Of a stretch of 34,619 nt of DNA, positions 6,758-31,466 are shown piece by piece; position 1 is the stretch's first letter; each line of letters begins with the position of its first letter. The position numbers were made by a program, and so were the translations under genes. This stretch comes from a bacterium (GTDB taxonomy: Bacteria; Patescibacteriota; Minisyncoccia; Phycocordibacterales; UBA2100), in contig JAEUQT010000002.1 in assembly GCA_016789445.1 (NCBI GenBank), forward strand, positions 291,857 through 326,475, given 5' to 3'. The notes below the pieces were generated by a model. It saw only the letters and a list, made by a program, of their open reading frames with translations. It was not told the DNA's origin and made no database searches.

Positions 6758-7825
6758 ATGGACAAGCTGCGACAGTGGAAGGAACGGATATTGGGACTCG
6801 TTTCCAATGACATAGGTATCGATCTTGGAACAGCGAATACGTTGGTGTACGTGAAAGGGCGTGGCATCGTCATCAATGAGCCGTCGATCGTCGCGTTGAA
6901 TCAGAAGACCGGACAGGTGGTTGCGGTCGGTGCCGAGGCCAAGAACATGCTCGGACGGACGCCCCCGCACATCGTCCCGGTGCAGCCGGTCATCGACGGC
7001 GTCATCTCAGACTTCGAGATCACCTCGGAGATGCTTTCGTATCTCATCAACAAAGCGCAGGCAGGGCACACCAAACTGCTGGGCCCGCGGGTCGTCGTCG
7101 GTGTCCCGTCCGGAATAACGTCGGTTGAAGTGCGTGCGGTGCGCGATGCGGCGCGCGGCGCGGGTGCGCGCGAAGTGCATATCGTCGAGGAGCCGATGGC
7201 GGCAGCGATCGGCATCGAGCTTCCGGTGCATGAGCCGACGGGAAGCATGGTGATCGATATCGGGGGCGGCACGACCGACGTCGGCATCATCTCGCTCGGC
7301 GGTCTCGTCGTCTCACGCAATATACGTATCGCGGGAGACAAATTCAGTCAGGACATCACGGGGCACGTACGCAATGAGCACAAGATCCTCATCGGCGAAA
7401 AGACGGCGGAGGAGCTGAAGATAGCCGGTGCATCGATACTCCGCGGCGATAAGATCGCGATGACGGCGCGTGGGCGCGACCTCGTGACCGGACTTCCGCG
7501 CGAGATCGAAGTCACCGATGAGGATATCCGTGCGGCGATCGGGCATAGCGTCGATGATCTCGTCGAGCAGGTGAAAGACGTCATCGAGGCGACGCCGCCG
7601 GAATTGCTCGCCGACGTCATGCAGCGCGGTATCTATCTTGCCGGCGGCGGCGCCATGATCCGCGGGCTTCCTGAATTCCTCACCGCCGCCCTCGGTGTGC
7701 CGGTGGTCGTCGCGAGCGATCCTCTTACGGCAGTCGTGCGTGGTACGGCAGTCATATTGGAAGACATGGATGCATTCCGTGCCGCGCTTCTCACCAACGA
7801 AGACGAGCTCGTGCCTACCGAATAA
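6758..7825 (+). CDS. mreB: MreB rod-shape determining protein (paralogue 2)
   Basis: A 355-residue actin homologue with phosphate loops at GIDLGTANTLVYV and DIGGGTTDVGIISLGG, and LAGGGAMIRGLPEFL near the end. An N-terminal amphipathic-looking stretch of about 16 residues (LRQWKERILGLV) precedes the fold, as in membrane-bound MreB proteins. It heads the mreB-mreC-mreD-PBP2 block and starts two bases after proS, so it shares that transcript. This is the canonical cell-elongation copy; the gene at 280 is its paralogue. Confidence 0.97.
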   Translation: MDKLRQWKERILGLVSNDIGIDLGTANTLVYVKGRGIVINEPSIVALNQKTGQVVAVGAEAKNMLGRTPPHIVPVQPVIDGVISDFEITSEMLSYLINKAQAGHTKLLGPRVVVGVPSGITSVEVRAVRDAARGAGAREVHIVEEPMAAAIGIELPVHEPTGSMVIDIGGGTTDVGIISLGGLVVSRNIRIAGDKFSQDITGHVRNEHKILIGEKTAEELKIAGASILRGDKIAMTARGRDLVTGLPREIEVTDEDIRAAIGHSVDDLVEQVKDVIEATPPELLADVMQRGIYLAGGGAMIRGLPEFLTAALGVPVVVASDPLTAVVRGTAVILEDMDAFRAALLTNEDELVPTE

Positions 7826-24560: not shown

Positions 24561-24581
24561 GTACGACTTTCAGATTTTGAA

Positions 24582-24619
24582 TAGCGGCGGATGCGAATGC
24601 ATCCGCCGCTATCTTTTTT
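24582..24619 (+). terminator. terminator closing the DUF4258/DUF2283 operon
   Basis: TAGCGGCGGATGC and GCATCCGCCGCTA form a 13-pair stem with a T run TCTTTTTT. Confidence 0.95.
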
Positions 24620-25010: not shown

Positions 25011-26510
25011 ATGACAGGAATACTCAACGCACGCATCGTCGCGTCTATCGCGATGCTCGTGTTCGTGGGAGCTGCGATCGCGGCTTCCACTGGTGCATTC
25101 TTTTCGGATACGGAAACCTCGACGGGTAATACATTTACGGCAGGCGATGTTGATATTACGATTACTGACCTGAGTCATCTCTACACTGGTGGGGGTGTGT
25201 CGCCGGATCAGCCGACCTACACCAAGAATGGCTTTTCATTCGCGCTTGGCGACCTGAAGCCACTCGATAGCGGTACGGTTACGTACAATCTTGGAAACGG
25301 TACGAATGACGCATATCTCTGCGCGGCAGTCGTCGAGACGGGCAACAACGAGAATTCGCGCTTGGAACCGGAAACGGAAGCAGGCGATGTGACCGATGGC
25401 GCAGGAAATGGCGAACTCGGCCAATTCCTTTCATTCAAGTTCGGTACGACAACAGGAACTCTTAATGGTCAGTGGCAGTCGCTTGGCGTGATTGCGGCAA
25501 ATGGCGCGACTTCGACCGGCATCGGTTACTGCTTCGGTACATACGTCGGCGGTGTATGTCAGGCAAGCGCACTCCCGAACATCAATCGCGCACAGACAGA
25601 CTCGATTACAGCTGACGTTCTGTTCTATGCTGTTCAGACACGAAATAATCCTGGTTTCCAGTGCTCACAGCTTCCGCCGGCGACTGGTACAACGACGCCT
25701 CCGACGGTACAGGTTGGCGCTGCGCTTGCAACTTATGCAGCGCCTAGTTGTTCAGTAACGGTGACAGGATCTAATTCCATCCAGGCGGCTGTCAATGCTG
25801 CATCGTCAGGACAAACGGTTTGCGTAGCTGATTCCTATGACAGGACAGGTGATAACACGGCAATTCGAATTGAAAATTCCGGAGTAACTCTTGCTGCGGT
25901 TACGCGCGGTATTGATCTCGATGTTCCTGTGGTCTTGAGCGCAAGCGGCGTCACCGTAACTGGTTTTGACGGTGTAATTGGCCAGGCTGAAAGTCCGGCT
26001 GAACAGGCTGCCTTTTATCTCGACAACGATGCCTCGGGATTTTCTCTCACCTTCAATACGGTGACAGGTGGAACGGGCGCTGCCATTCTGACGGAGACAG
26101 GCGCTGCACTTGGAGGTGGATTGATTGCAAACAATGTTCTTAGTGGTGCGACTCAGGGAGTCTACACAAATCCTCATACCGGAGTATTTATTATCGAATA
26201 CAACGACATCGATAACAATGTCGCAGGTATCGCAGGCTTGATGGGTGCAACGGTTCGTTACAACGAATTCGAGCACACAAGTGCAGCTCAGGAAGCGATT
26301 GGGGTGGATTCAACGATCGATAGTAATCCAGCTACGGTTAGCTTCAATAACTTCTTAGGTGACACACGAGTCAACACTTATGGCTCCATTGTTGGCGACC
26401 TTAGTGCTGAAAACAACTTCTGGGGCCCTAACGGGGGTGCTGCACAAACAGGTGGATCGGATGAAGTGGACTTCACGCCACAGGCGGGTGCTGCTTACGC
26501 ACATAAATAG
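25011..26510 (+). CDS. TasA/camelysin-like SipW substrate with beta-helix C-terminus
   Basis: A 499-residue secreted protein. The N-terminus has a hydrophobic segment (about 9-27) followed by the SipW-type cleavage motif GAFFSDTETSTGNTFTAG at 28-45. Residues 45-225 resemble the TasA/CalY Ig-like fold, with FALGDLKPLDSGTVTYNLGNG and four or five Cys. Residues 245-499 have a repeating pattern of short strands (AIRIENSGVTL, VVLSASGVTVTGFDG, GLIANNVLSG, FIIEYNDIDNNVAG), typical of right-handed parallel beta-helices of the NosD/pectate-lyase style. TasA proteins polymerise into matrix or surface fibres. The start at 25011 has no SD. A surface-fibre or adhesive role is inference. Confidence 0.85.
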   Translation: MTGILNARIVASIAMLVFVGAAIAASTGAFFSDTETSTGNTFTAGDVDITITDLSHLYTGGGVSPDQPTYTKNGFSFALGDLKPLDSGTVTYNLGNGTNDAYLCAAVVETGNNENSRLEPETEAGDVTDGAGNGELGQFLSFKFGTTTGTLNGQWQSLGVIAANGATSTGIGYCFGTYVGGVCQASALPNINRAQTDSITADVLFYAVQTRNNPGFQCSQLPPATGTTTPPTVQVGAALATYAAPSCSVTVTGSNSIQAAVNAASSGQTVCVADSYDRTGDNTAIRIENSGVTLAAVTRGIDLDVPVVLSASGVTVTGFDGVIGQAESPAEQAAFYLDNDASGFSLTFNTVTGGTGAAILTETGAALGGGLIANNVLSGATQGVYTNPHTGVFIIEYNDIDNNVAGIAGLMGATVRYNEFEHTSAAQEAIGVDSTIDSNPATVSFNNFLGDTRVNTYGSIVGDLSAENNFWGPNGGAAQTGGSDEVDFTPQAGAAYAHK

Positions 26511-26697: not shown

Positions 26698-28338
26698 ATG
26701 AATCTGAACTTATCAAGAATCGCTTTGTCGTTGATGCTCATCGTCGGAGCAGGTGGGGCAATCGTGAACGGTACTTCTGCGTTCTTCTCCGATACGGAGA
26801 CCTCACAAGGAAACACCTTCACCGCAGGTGCAATCGATCTCAAGGTGGACCACACGCTGCAGACCTATAACGGGAACCTCGTCGGCGGGAGTCTCACGAT
26901 CGTCTCCGACACGCAGACGACCGTGAATGGTGATCCGGCCATCGCACTCGCATTCGTGCATCCAGGATGGACGGCGACCGGAGAAATCCCGGGCGCGACG
27001 TGGATATGGGGTACGCAAGGACCGACAGACCCGACCACGGATGAATCCTTTACGTTTACCCGCACCTTCAACTGGAGCGGCCCTGCAACAACGGCGACAC
27101 TCCAGGTCGCGGCGGACAATTACTACGACGTCGACCTGAACGGACAGGATGTCGGCGCGGAACTCGCTGATGAGAATAACTTCCAGGCGGGCACGTACGA
27201 CACCTACGATGTCTTGACCAAGCTCGTTCCGGGCGTGAACACGCTTACGTTCGTCGTTACGAATAAGGGCGTACCCGGCTCGAACGGGCAGAGTAATCCC
27301 GCCGGGCTCCTCTTCAAGCTCGTCATCGACGGACCGGCAACGACCTGGACGGAGAAAGACCTCGCATCCGGCGATGTCTTCTGGAACTTCAATGATGTGA
27401 AGCCGGGGGATAGCGGTACGAACGTCATCTCGCTCCATGTGTACGACAACGATGCGTATGCCTGCTTGATGGCGACGAACGTCGAGGACAACGAGAACTC
27501 GAATATCGAGCCGGAACAATCGGCAGGGGATACGGATACTCCGGAGGGCGAACTCTCTCCGTTCCTCAAGCTCTTCGTCTGGAATGACGGGCTTGCGGGC
27601 GATGGCGTCTACACGCCGGGCGAGACTATCGTCTATGGCCCTGACCAGCCGCTCAGTGGATTCAGCACAGCGCAGAAGCTTGCTCTTCAGGCGACGACCA
27701 CGCAGTACATCGGCGCTGCATGGTGCTTCGGCGAACAGAACGTGGATGGCGGCGGTGTCATCACCTGCGATGGTTCGGCTGACGGATACAATGTGGCGCA
27801 AACCGATAGCGTAGTCGCTGACCTCGAATTCCTCGCGGTGCAGCAGCGCAATAACGCGAGCTTCCAGTGCCCGATGCCTGAGGAGCCGGAGCATCCGAAC
27901 ACAAGCCTCCTGCATGCGACGAAGATCGAGTGTCCTGCAGAGGCTTCACTTCCGAACTGGGGCAATAACGGACCGGACGTGACTTCGACGACAGCCGATG
28001 TATTCCTTGCCGCTCATCCTGAATGTAAGGAAGTGCCATGGGATTTCCAGTGGTCGACCTCTAATGTTGACCCAGATGACCATGCAGGCGTACTCGCCGG
28101 ATGGACGACCTTCTCGGCTGGCAACCCAGCAGAGATTCCGGTCGGAGGCACCGTCTATGTGCGTGAGGTGTTCCAGCAGGGCTACATCGGATTTACCGGA
28201 CAGAACACTGACCAAAGTAATTCCGCAGAACTGTACTGCAGCACGGACGTCATGAACTACGACAACTGGGAATGGGTGCCGACAGCAGCAGCGGGCGAGG
28301 ATTACTACTGTGTTGCGTTCAACGTTCCTCAGCAATAG
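26698..28338 (+). CDS. TasA/camelysin-like SipW substrate, 546 aa
   Basis: The N-terminal signal segment (about 8-27) is followed by SAFFSDTETSQGNTFTAG at 27-44. A TasA-like region then appears in two parts: an inserted domain of about 150 residues (TVNGDPAIALAFVHPGW to PGVNTLTFVV, resembling a galactose-binding-like beta domain), and then VFWNFNDVKPGDSGTNVIS with DNDAYACL, the standard TasA-domain core. The C-terminal 130 residues, after an EEPEHP linker, form a separate Cys-containing beta domain. There is no SD; the dispersed repeat ends 17 bases upstream. It is presumably exported and cut by the signal peptidase encoded at 29335. Confidence 0.85.
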   Translation: MNLNLSRIALSLMLIVGAGGAIVNGTSAFFSDTETSQGNTFTAGAIDLKVDHTLQTYNGNLVGGSLTIVSDTQTTVNGDPAIALAFVHPGWTATGEIPGATWIWGTQGPTDPTTDESFTFTRTFNWSGPATTATLQVAADNYYDVDLNGQDVGAELADENNFQAGTYDTYDVLTKLVPGVNTLTFVVTNKGVPGSNGQSNPAGLLFKLVIDGPATTWTEKDLASGDVFWNFNDVKPGDSGTNVISLHVYDNDAYACLMATNVEDNENSNIEPEQSAGDTDTPEGELSPFLKLFVWNDGLAGDGVYTPGETIVYGPDQPLSGFSTAQKLALQATTTQYIGAAWCFGEQNVDGGGVITCDGSADGYNVAQTDSVVADLEFLAVQQRNNASFQCPMPEEPEHPNTSLLHATKIECPAEASLPNWGNNGPDVTSTTADVFLAAHPECKEVPWDFQWSTSNVDPDDHAGVLAGWTTFSAGNPAEIPVGGTVYVREVFQQGYIGFTGQNTDQSNSAELYCSTDVMNYDNWEWVPTAAAGEDYYCVAFNVPQQ

Positions 28339-28363: not shown

Positions 28364-29332
28364 ATGCTTCGTCTCAAACTACCAGCACGCATAGTATTCA
28401 CCGCCGGCATCATGTCGGTGGTGATACTTGCGTTCGGTTTCCGGACGGAGGCGACGGGCTTCACCTATGCGACGGGCAGCGGATTCAATCTCCGCATCGA
28501 TTCGCAAGCGTTTTACAACGGACAGGCCGTCCCTTCGTCGACCTGGTCCTTGAAGAATCTCCAGCCGAATTCCGACAAATTCTTTAACTTCAATGACATC
28601 AAGCCCGGGGACAGGGGTACAACGACCCTCAGCTTCCATGTGAACAAGGATGCGTGGATCTGTCTCGATTTCGAGAAACTGAAGGAATATGAGAACGGGC
28701 GCAATGAGCCGGAGATGGCGGAAGATAGCACGGGGGGCGCAAACTCGGGGGAACTAGCGGATGGTACTGAATTCTTCGCCTGGTACGACGACGGCGGACC
28801 GCACCCAGGTGACGGCGTGTACCAAGTAGGTGAGCGGTCTATATTCGGTACCTCGACAGGAAAACAGGCGGCGACGAAGGTCTTTGACAACAAGACCTAT
28901 GCGCTCGCTGATTCGGTATTCGGCACCGCATTCACCGCTTCGACGACGCGCTACGTGGGCATCACGTGGTGCGCGGGGGATCTGGCGGTGAACGTAGCAA
29001 CGGCGGCTATCAGCTGCGATGCGACGAAGCTCGGCAACGAGGCACAGACGGATTCCTTTACGGTGGATGTCTCCATCCGCGCGGAAGGATCGAAGGACAA
29101 CAAGAACTTCAAGTGCGTGAAGAAGGGAACGACCTGCGAATACGCCGGGCCGGTCAAGGTGAATATCACCAACAGCGCGACGGTGACGAACACGACGACC
29201 TCCAGCTCGAATACCGGTGGCAATTCGGCGGGCGCAGGCGGAACGGTCGTCACCGGCAACGCCACGAGTTCTTCAGCAGTGAAGAATATCCTGAACACGG
29301 TGAACATCCTCATCGGAGGAAGGAGTAGGTAA
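28364..29332 (+). CDS. TasA-like surface protein with low-complexity tail, 322 aa
   Basis: The signal segment IVFTAGIMSVVILAFGF is followed by TEATGFTYATGSGFNLRIDS. The SipW-type SDTETS...FTAG motif has been replaced, so cleavage may differ from the other two. The core of a TasA-like domain is present (FFNFNDIKPGDRGTTTLSF and KDAWICLDFEKL, then TRYVGITWCAG). The C-terminus is a Thr/Ser/Asn/Gly-rich linker (about 265-305) with a short hydrophobic end. It starts 26 bases after the previous gene and ends just before the peptidase, so all three are co-transcribed. Confidence 0.82.
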   Translation: MLRLKLPARIVFTAGIMSVVILAFGFRTEATGFTYATGSGFNLRIDSQAFYNGQAVPSSTWSLKNLQPNSDKFFNFNDIKPGDRGTTTLSFHVNKDAWICLDFEKLKEYENGRNEPEMAEDSTGGANSGELADGTEFFAWYDDGGPHPGDGVYQVGERSIFGTSTGKQAATKVFDNKTYALADSVFGTAFTASTTRYVGITWCAGDLAVNVATAAISCDATKLGNEAQTDSFTVDVSIRAEGSKDNKNFKCVKKGTTCEYAGPVKVNITNSATVTNTTTSSSNTGGNSAGAGGTVVTGNATSSSAVKNILNTVNILIGGRSR

Positions 29333-29334
29333 CT

Positions 29335-30462
29335 ATGATGAAAGCACTCAATTACATCTTCTACGGAATCTTCGTGACCATGATGCTCGCCATCGCGGGG
29401 CTTCTCGTGGCGTCGATGCTGCCGATTCCGGGGAATATCGAATTGAAGATCGTGAAATCCGGCTCGATGGAACCGACGATCCCGACGGGCTCCTTGGTCA
29501 TCGTGAAGCCGATGCAGAGCTATGGGATCGACGATGTGATCACGTTCGGTGCTGATACGAAGACGGAAATCCCGACGACACACCGCATCATCGGGTACGA
29601 GAGTGATGCAGAAGGCCGCAGTGTCTTCCGTACGAAGGGCGATGCCAACGAGGATCAGGATGCGAATCCGGTACCGCGAGGGGAGGTCATCGGTAAAGTG
29701 GTCTTCCACCTGCCGTATGTCGGATTCGTATTGGATTTCGCGCGGCAGCCGCTCGGCTTCGCGCTGCTTATCGGCGTACCGGCGGCACTCGTCATCGTCG
29801 AAGAGGTGCTCACGATCACGAAGGAAGTGAAAGCCGCGCTGGTGCGACGCCGCAAGAAGGAAGAAGGTGATGAGGATACGGATGACGAACCTTCGCATGG
29901 CTCGGGCGGCACCCGATTGCGCGAAGTGGCAGCGGAGCGCACGGTGTATCTGCGCAAGCGCGCGATGGATGAGATCTTCGTACCGATGGTCTCGGAGACG
30001 CGCACGTGGGTACGTGAGAAATTGCCGCTGCCGAAGGATGCGTATGCGAGCGGCACGATCGCGGTCGGAGTTCTGGTAGGTATTTCCGTACTCACGACGG
30101 GTGGCATGCAGGGAACTTTGGCGTATTTCACTGATATCGAGACTTCGATCGGGAATGTCTTTCGTGCCGGTGAGTGGGGTGAAGAGGAGGAAGAGCAGCC
30201 GATAGAAGTCGCTCGCATGTTGGCACCGGAAGGCGAAGTGGCGGGCGCGGCGACGGAATCTGAGACACCAACAGAGATTCCTGCGGAAGAACCAGCCCCC
30301 GAGGAGGAGGAGGCGGCTCAAACGGCGCCAATTGAGCCGGTCGAGCCTGCTGCAGAGCCGGAAACCCCTGCCGAGAGTACCGGGGGTCAAACGGCGCCGA
30401 TTGAACCCCCAGCCGCAGAAACCCCTGCGCCGGAACCGGCTGTTGAGGAAGCGATACTTTAG
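29335..30462 (+). CDS. sipW: ER/SipW-type signal peptidase I fused to a substrate-like motif and acidic tail
   Basis: A 375-residue protein. Residues 1-165 form a signal peptidase I of the SipW/ER type: TM helix 8-30, catalytic S44 in KSGSMEPTIPTG, H83 in TTHRIIG (His in place of the bacterial Lys), acidic residues at D103-D109 in GDANEDQD, and a second TM helix at about 140-160. A charged linker follows, then a third TM helix at about 241-258. Next comes TLAYFTDIETSIGNVFRAG (261-279), which matches the cleavage motif of the operon's substrates. The last 95 residues are Glu/Pro/Ala-rich with QTAPIEP twice. GGAGGAAGGAG lies upstream. Self-cleavage of the tail is inference. Confidence 0.9.
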   Translation: MMKALNYIFYGIFVTMMLAIAGLLVASMLPIPGNIELKIVKSGSMEPTIPTGSLVIVKPMQSYGIDDVITFGADTKTEIPTTHRIIGYESDAEGRSVFRTKGDANEDQDANPVPRGEVIGKVVFHLPYVGFVLDFARQPLGFALLIGVPAALVIVEEVLTITKEVKAALVRRRKKEEGDEDTDDEPSHGSGGTRLREVAAERTVYLRKRAMDEIFVPMVSETRTWVREKLPLPKDAYASGTIAVGVLVGISVLTTGGMQGTLAYFTDIETSIGNVFRAGEWGEEEEEQPIEVARMLAPEGEVAGAATESETPTEIPAEEPAPEEEEAAQTAPIEPVEPAAEPETPAESTGGQTAPIEPPAAETPAPEPAVEEAIL

Positions 30463-30508: not shown

Positions 30509-30537
30509 GCACCTCTCTTCGGAGAGGTGCTTTTTTC
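30509..30537 (+). terminator. terminator of the TasA/SipW operon
   Basis: GCACCTCTC-TTCG-GAGAGGTGC followed by TTTTTT; a UUCG tetraloop and a perfect nine-pair stem. Confidence 0.97.
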
Positions 30538-30594: not shown

Positions 30595-30990
30595 ATGTAT
30601 CGCATCGGAGTATTCCTGCTCGCGCTGCTCTTCGGCATCTCGCATGTCGAGGCGCGTGAACAGATACGGACTATCGGCACACAGCTTTTTGAGGCGGTCT
30701 CAGACGACGAACCGCCGACGCTTCTTGATCTCATCGTGATCGGCGTCGCCTGCGGCAGCTCAGCTGCTGCGGCCGGTCTCGAGATCGGGGATAGCATCAT
30801 CGAGATCAACGGACACGAGATCCTGCAGAAGGAGATCTCGGCATACCTGCGTGCAGCACACGAGGTCGAATCGACCGAGAAGGCAGTGTTGAAGGTCAAA
30901 CGACCGAGCGGCATCGTGCGCACGGTCACGCTCGTGCCGACACTCCATGACGATGAATTCAAATGCGGGAAACTGCTGCAGGATTCATAA
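30595..30990 (+). CDS. small secreted PDZ-domain protein, 131 aa
   Basis: The signal peptide MYRIGVFLLALLFGISHVEA is followed by a PDZ domain at about 45-115: VIGVACGSSAAAAGLEIGD, SIIEINGHEILQ and TLVPTLHDD. PDZ domains bind peptide C-termini. There is no protease or other domain. Cys residues at about 53 and 125 could form a disulfide. It stands alone on its own promoter and terminator, 130 bases after the SipW operon. Its paralogue-like neighbour at 31080 has the same plan. A role in handling surface or exported proteins is inference. Confidence 0.8.
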   Translation: MYRIGVFLLALLFGISHVEAREQIRTIGTQLFEAVSDDEPPTLLDLIVIGVACGSSAAAAGLEIGDSIIEINGHEILQKEISAYLRAAHEVESTEKAVLKVKRPSGIVRTVTLVPTLHDDEFKCGKLLQDS

Positions 30991-31079: not shown

Positions 31080-31466
31080 ATGCGTTTCTTCATCGCCTGT
31101 ATGGCGCTCGCACTCTCAACGAACCTCGCGTCCTCGGAAAACGAGATGCGCCGCGGATTCGAGGTGAAGCTCATCCGCACGCAGCAGGGCTTCAAGCATC
31201 CGCAGTACGCGATCGTGACGAAAGTGTATTGCGAGAGCTCGGCGAAGCGGGCCGGACTTCTCTACGGAGACATCCTGTGGCGGATCGATGGCAAGCCTGT
31301 CGATTCGATGAGCGATGCGGAGTTCATCGTGGCGATCGCGCGTATCGAGCAGATCCCGTGGCTCGTCATCTCCGTGCGACGCGGGACCGAACATGGTCCC
31401 GTCCAGAAGGTGATTCATTTCCCGCCGCGCACCGGCGGATATGACTGTCCGGAGCAGGATATCTAG
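31080..31466 (+). CDS. small secreted PDZ-domain protein, 128 aa
   Basis: The signal peptide MRFFIACMALALSTNLASS is cut before ENE. A PDZ domain follows, with AIVTKVYCESSAKRAGLLYGD, ILWRIDGKPVDSM and VQKVIHFPP, and two Cys in the mature part. Like the gene at 30595 it is a single PDZ domain with an export signal and no partner domain. The PDZ cores are alike but the flanks are divergent, so the two may be old duplicates. Function is unknown; binding of exported protein tails is plausible. Confidence 0.8.
   Translation: MRFFIACMALALSTNLASSENEMRRGFEVKLIRTQQGFKHPQYAIVTKVYCESSAKRAGLLYGDILWRIDGKPVDSMSDAEFIVAIARIEQIPWLVISVRRGTEHGPVQKVIHFPPRTGGYDCPEQDI

Follow-up and report, generated by a model that had tools for sequence, protein, structure and literature searches.

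A SipW-type signal peptidase of a patescibacterium joined to a substrate module that it probably cuts, with a possible role of the product in fibre priming

The signal peptidase SipW of Bacillus subtilis processes TasA and TapA. The donor strand of TasA comprises residues 28–38, just after the cut, with contacts made by F29, I32, and F39, and the same study regards TapA as the probable cell anchor of TasA (PMC9674648). Mature TapA starts with AFHDI, which is nearly the AFNDI of TasA, its residues 44–57 suffice for biofilm structure, its C-terminus is negatively charged, and the stop codon of tapA overlaps the start of sipW (PMC10151520). The locus analysed here lies in a window of 34,619 nucleotides (the whole stretch of DNA under analysis), which is part of contig 2 of an 850-kb genome that is 99% complete. 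It is like tapA-sipW-tasA in that a SipW-type peptidase is linked to proteins with the same cleavage-site and early-mature motif. In B. subtilis peptidase and substrates are distinct proteins and tapA precedes sipW, whereas in the window the substrate module is located on the C-terminus of the peptidase (Table 1). The fragment that would be cut from this module shares with TapA an N-terminus like a donor strand and an acidic C-terminal end, and in A↓YFTDIETSIGNVF the residues F, I, and F occupy similar places. TapA has an Ig domain, whereas the window module lacks one and is not filed as TapA because residues 280–375 contain no folded part. The window protein is a variation of the SipW system and not a new category. 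The LexA/UmuD-type proteases, which cut a segment of their own chain, have the same superfamily fold as the window peptidase according to Foldseek, but they are soluble Ser-Lys enzymes that cut upstream of the catalytic domain, whereas in the window protein the site lies downstream, after the third transmembrane (TM) helix. We know of no signal peptidase for which self-cleavage is a built-in design, and the recurrent peptidase-substrate fusion described below would, if our reading is true, make it one. SipA of Streptococcus pyogenes is a signal-peptidase-like protein tied to the building of surface fibres, and 4n31 is among the Foldseek matches; the abstract of that report deals with sortase pili and describes no fused substrate motif (PMC4049620). 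An open-access literature search found no report of a peptidase-substrate fusion.

Table 1. Coordinates of the fused gene, its parts, and its neighbours in the window
Feature	Position	Strand	Basis
Terminator-like hairpin, 14 pairs then T-run, upstream of operon	24581..24612	+	Consensus scan
Surface protein 1, 499 aa, N-terminal SipW-type signal, probable substrate	25011..26510	+	TIGR04088, 25.0 bits
Motif AFFSDTETSTGNTFTAG of surface protein 1	25095-25145	+	Above TIGR04088 cut-off of 19
Surface protein 2, 546 aa, probable substrate	26698..28338	+	TIGR04088, 26.0 bits
Motif AFFSDTETSQGNTFTAG of surface protein 2	26779-26829	+	Above TIGR04088 cut-off of 19
Surface protein 3, 322 aa, degenerate motif	28364..29332	+	Alignment to proteins 1 and 2; genome search
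Fused gene, SipW-type signal peptidase and substrate module, 375 aa	29335..30462	+	ORF, profile, homologue alignment
Signal peptidase region, residues 8-160	29356..29814	+	TIGR02228, 98.9 bits
Codon of S44	29464-29466	+	Invariant in 30 homologues
Codon of H83	29581-29583	+	Invariant in 30 homologues
Codon of D103	29641-29643	+	Invariant in 30 homologues
Codon of D109	29659-29661	+	Invariant in 30 homologues
Conserved cytoplasmic box in linker, residues 204-219, YLRKRAMDEIFVPMVS	29944..29991	+	Counterpart of N-tail of split substrates
Third TM helix (TM3)/signal anchor, residues 236-256	30040..30102	+	Hydropathy; AF2 helix
SipW-substrate motif TLAYFTDIETSIGNVFRAG, residues 261-279	30115..30171	+	TIGR04088, 21.8 bits
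Predicted cut	Between 30121-30123 (A263) and 30124-30126 (Y264)	+	Sequence prediction
Acidic Pro-rich tail, predicted disordered, residues 280-375	30172..30459	+	Composition; low pLDDT
Terminator-like hairpin downstream of fused gene	30509..30530	+	Consensus scan

The first part of the 375-aa protein matches TIGR02228, which covers archaeal, ER, and SipW-type signal peptidase I, with a score of 98.9 bits against a cut-off of 51.85 (residues 8–160). The catalytic residues S44, H83, and Asp at 103 and 109 are present where the initial annotation had placed them within the open reading frame at 29335–30462. The catalytic pair is Ser-His, not Ser-Lys, and S44, H83, D103, and D109 are all invariant in 30 homologues. 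The Bacillus-specific SipW model NF046067 scores 112 bits, below its cut-off of 190, indicating that the window peptidase does not belong to the Bacillus equivalog. Among solved structures human SEC11A/C come closest, both by sequence (1.6e-15) and by fold (Foldseek, 8.6e-7). In the AF2 model the mean pLDDT reaches up to 95 in the catalytic domain, helices are seen at residues 2–28, 139–176, and 236–256, and the tail is without structure. A Foldseek search with the whole fused protein confirmed the signal peptidase fold and returned nothing beyond it. Cleavage of SipW-type substrates is the predicted activity of this enzyme. A separate P-type signal peptidase (126 bits) is encoded on contig 1 of the same genome and appears to handle the general work, and for this reason the window peptidase looks dedicated.

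The peptidase domain is followed by a linker and a third hydrophobic helix with a hydropathy peak at residues 236–254 (AF2 helix 236–256). The placement in the initial annotation of a SipW-type motif at 261–279 after this helix is exact, and TIGR04088 matches residues 257–281 with 21.8 bits, above its curated cut-off of 19. The same holds for its statement about the two adjacent surface proteins, in which AFFSDTETS[TQ]GNTFTAG starts at 25095 and 26779, after the signal helices. Comparison of the peptidase motif with the neighbours' AFFSDTETSTGNTFTAG resulted in a BLOSUM62 score of 59, whereas 50,000 shuffles gave a mean of 13.6 (sd 4.1) and a maximum of 43 (Gumbel p ~9e-7) and no other segment in the six frames of the window scores above 28; these values rule out a chance motif. 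In the whole genome TIGR04088 has only three sites, which are those of the two upstream surface proteins and of the peptidase itself. The tail is acidic and Pro-rich, as had been described (29% D/E, 1% K/R, and 18% P), but it counts 96 residues after the motif and not 95. Residues 280–375 have low pLDDT and contain no secondary structure or folded part in the AF2 model. The signal helix is internal in the fused protein, after residue 235, compared with an N-terminal position in the split homologues.

In the taxonomic family of the window, 11 of 70 genomes have this peptidase, which occurs there in two forms. The seven long, fused forms (the window protein, L003, L004, L005, L006, L007, and L011) all contain TM3, the motif, and an acidic tail of 89–158 residues; homologues that keep the tail without the motif, which the initial annotation had named as evidence against its reading, were not found among them, as all seven keep both. 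The four short forms (L008, L009, L010, and L012) have 188–208 aa and end before TM3, and the gene that follows, which overlaps the peptidase gene by 4–8 nt, encodes a conserved N-tail, a TM helix, the motif, a folded part, and a P/E-rich end. Profile comparison of the C-terminal half of the fused proteins with the N-terminal half of the split substrates gave a match with 98.5% probability and E=1.8e-15 over 77 columns. For the cytoplasmic segment alone, without the motif and most of the TM helix, the E value is 7e-4 compared with 0.2–0.6 in column-shuffled controls, with a probability of only 26% as the segment is short. In L019 (2097–2555) the TM helix, motif, and acidic tail form a gene of their own encoding 152 aa, with a 4-nt overlap with the peptidase gene. 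Because the split relatives encode the homologous segment in the next gene, the window protein is, on sequence grounds, two joined genes, the second of which encodes a peptidase substrate. This identity of the C-terminal module as a fused substrate gene is absent from the initial annotation. The split Paceibacteria pairs (L008–L012, L019, and others) thus have a homologous peptidase, N-tail, TM helix, motif, and tail, but these are distributed over two overlapping genes and usually include a folded ectodomain (camelysin-like or LTD), whereas the window fusion lacks an ectodomain. The same fused architecture is seen in L013, which is labelled Candidatus Kaiserbacteria, and fused and split forms coexist within one genus. 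Some fused relatives score below the TIGR04088 cut-off of 19, such as L003 (16.5) and L005 (17.4). An assembly or frameshift artefact is ruled out by the presence of the same fusion in several genomes at 42–53% identity. The short peptidases L008, L009, L010, L012, and L022, which belong to this family or its surroundings, have a common (V/T)LDLR motif near the C-terminus, which is missing from the fused peptidases of the family and is retained by L023 inside the fused linker.

Genomes were also searched, as had been proposed, for signal peptidases with the motif after the catalytic domain, and these were found in many Patescibacteria relatives. In the order and class surveys the peptidase is present in 42 of 397 and 45 of 384 genomes. 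A motif-bearing next gene follows 38 of 52 short peptidases by a strict pattern and about eight more by eye. The short forms often have a 4-nt overlap with the next gene, and none of the five fused genes with a visible next gene is followed by a separate motif gene. Fusions outside the family include L018, L021, and L033, which retain a large ectodomain, and L023, which lacks one like the window protein. Across the phylum TIGR02228 is found in 98 of 380 genomes, with clear motif-bearing fusions in L087, L096, L097, L100, L103, L104, and L107, several of them with large ectodomains, and weaker motifs in L086, L093, L094, L095, and L098. A single-genome oddity is ruled out by the fusions found in the family, order/class, and phylum surveys. 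The fused state changes five times on a tree of 64 peptidases and 12 times on a tree of 92, with two and three changes, respectively, forced by well-supported branches; many branches are weakly supported, so these counts are a minimum on uncertain trees. By this reconstruction the fusion of SipW-type peptidases arose or was lost several times in Patescibacteria. In Bacillota, no C-terminal motif was seen in the eight readable of 15 long frames from 61 genomes with TIGR02228, a provisional result; these eight carry either N-terminal extensions or motif-free C-termini. SipW substrates of Patescibacteria repeatedly contain lamin-tail-domain (LTD) segments, both in fusions with the peptidase and in the next gene; these segments are identified by Pfam in L008 (2120–3535) and L020 (2–1516) and by eye in the C-terminal parts of L096, L100, and L103.

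When the seven fused family members are compared in pairs, mean identity reaches 62% in the catalytic domain and 63% in the motif, whereas it is 42% in the cytoplasmic box, 29% in TM3, 11–23% elsewhere in the linker, and 14% in the tail. All 18 clear fusions have T/A/S at position -3 and A/S at position -1, and none of them departs from E(+6), N(+11), and A(+15). This invariance results partly from the selection of the set, as the 18 fusions were chosen for a clear motif and weaker-motif fusions exist; position -3 was not among the criteria. Cleavage at TLA263↓Y264, in cis or in trans, is likely because the motif is as conserved as the catalytic domain and the residues at -3 and -1 are small in 18 of 18 fusions. 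With the retention of the motif in seven of seven family members, this conservation, and the presence of only three sites in the genome, cleavage by the enzyme itself or by a sister copy is the most economical explanation. We infer self-cleavage from the conservation and the genome-wide motif count, and the recurrence of the fusion in many relatives points to an enzyme that acts on its own chain and sets part of it free. We consider it probable that the protein is a fusion of the peptidase with its own substrate and cuts its own C-terminal module.

The gene is a translational fusion of a peptidase with a substrate N-tail, a signal-anchor TM3, the SipW motif, and an acidic disordered tail, and the peptidase would cut both neighbouring surface proteins 1 and 2. 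TM3 comes after a long linker, and because this linker begins with a positively charged stretch after TM2, TM3 should have the orientation of a signal peptide. The motif would reach the outer face, which is also the place of cleavage for the other substrates, and would be cut there at TLA263↓YFTD, either within the same molecule or between sister copies. The peptidase and TM3 would stay in the membrane. The initial annotation had predicted the release of a 95-residue tail of about 10–11 kDa; computed from the cut between A263 and Y264, the released fragment would be somewhat larger, with 112 residues, ~11.7 kDa, and an acidic pI of 4.05, and would start with YFTDIETSIGNVF. A semi-tryptic peptide of the cleaved fragment would start with YFTDIETSIGNVFR.

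The motif may also be the donor strand of TasA-like fibres, and for this reason the product may serve to prime fibres instead of being a free peptide or a wall stalk. By analogy with Bacillus, the secreted peptide or stalk of the initial annotation is more aptly described as a putative strand for fibre priming, whether released or held. The equivalents of F29, I32, and F39 of TasA in the window protein are F265, I268, and F276, the spacing of the last two being longer by one residue, and all three lie within the candidate donor-strand peptide YFTDIETSIGNVFRAG. The position of I268 is occupied by T in several fused relatives, and in the alignment the fused form has no counterpart of the latter half of the substrate strand (xIDLxV) behind the motif. 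The new N-terminus would act as a donor strand in the manner of TasA and TapA and would prime, cap, or attach fibres of surface proteins 1 and 2, so that one polypeptide would supply the processing enzyme and the fibre initiator at a 1:1 ratio. Use as a fibre strand is the most likely fate of the fragment because its layout is that of TapA in short form, and a priming role is proposed tentatively on this analogy. It is conceivable, and put forward with reserve, that Patescibacteria SipW-type peptidases were repeatedly fused to substrates and that in the window family the substrate has shrunk to a bare strand and tail, a self-made 1:1 initiator that would start TasA-like fibres at the site of trimming. 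Such a system would make the surface fibres of uncultivated Patescibacteria accessible through sequence and would be, with one polypeptide, one cut, and one short strand, a minimal system for testing how fibres start by donor strand.

The main rival to a released strand is one that stays uncut, where TM3 holds the motif at the membrane and the peptidase anchors the fibre base and docks freshly processed subunits. This would agree with the coincidence of the motif with the TasA donor strand and with the anchoring of TasA to the cell that is attributed to TapA (PMC9674648), as well as with the conserved cytoplasmic box that precedes TM3. Small residues at -3 and -1 would, however, be needless without cutting, yet they are kept in all 18 clear fusions, and the corresponding split substrates look like ordinary SipW substrates, making an uncut strand unlikely. 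Still less likely is a neutral fusion, in which the stop between the overlapping genes was lost and the joined protein works as the two separate proteins would, an explanation that itself still needs the self-cut. The common 4-nt overlaps of the short forms, the coexistence of both forms in one genus, and the several gains or losses of the fused state are in line with such an origin, but the window family is without a folded ectodomain and yet keeps the fusion, the motif, and the acidic tail at 42–53% overall identity, which suggests a specific use of the fusion; neutrality would explain its origin and not the retention of motif and tail without a folded domain. That the motif is a pseudosubstrate, filling the active site and restraining the peptidase until it is displaced by substrates or by self-cleavage, is conceivable since LepB is bound and inhibited by peptides of the TasA cleavage site (PMC10269814), but LepB is a P-type enzyme and not SipW, the large ectodomains after the motif in L018, L021, L033, L096, L100, and L104 would be needless for an inhibitor, and the split genes argue for a substrate, so that this explanation is very improbable.

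The presumed partners of the fragment are encoded upstream, and the four genes that start at 25011, 26698, 28364, and 29335 follow one another in the same direction between the two terminator-like hairpins. A TasA-like fold of the neighbouring surface proteins is weakly supported, as Foldseek with a neighbour model of pLDDT 65 placed the TasA fibre 8aur at rank 33 (prob 0.57, E 0.04) and a search of the PDB with the neighbour sequence profile found no TasA. Surface protein 2 scores 20.9 bits for Peptidase_M73/camelysin, below the cut-off of 22.5, and an insert in this protein resembles the alpha-L-rhamnosidase N-terminal domain (NF041573, 37 bits; PF08531, 21.9 bits; both below cut-off). The gene for surface protein 3 ends 2 nt before the peptidase start, and its product has no TIGR04088 match in the profile searches of the window and the whole genome. 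It is homologous to both substrates with a degenerate motif, FGFRTEATGFTYATG, and its relatives upstream of other peptidases likewise have a degenerate motif, several of them ending in an N/T/S/G-rich repeat and a hydrophobic C-terminus. Just past the operon terminator are genes for two small secreted single-PDZ proteins (30595–30990 and 31080–31466, + strand), and a similar protein adjoins the fused gene in L003 (730–1155, - strand); the PDZ assignment was profile-tested for the window pair only. Two MreB-like genes, recognized by eye from their translations, are present in the window of this one reduced genome at 280–1293 and 6758–7825 (+ strand).
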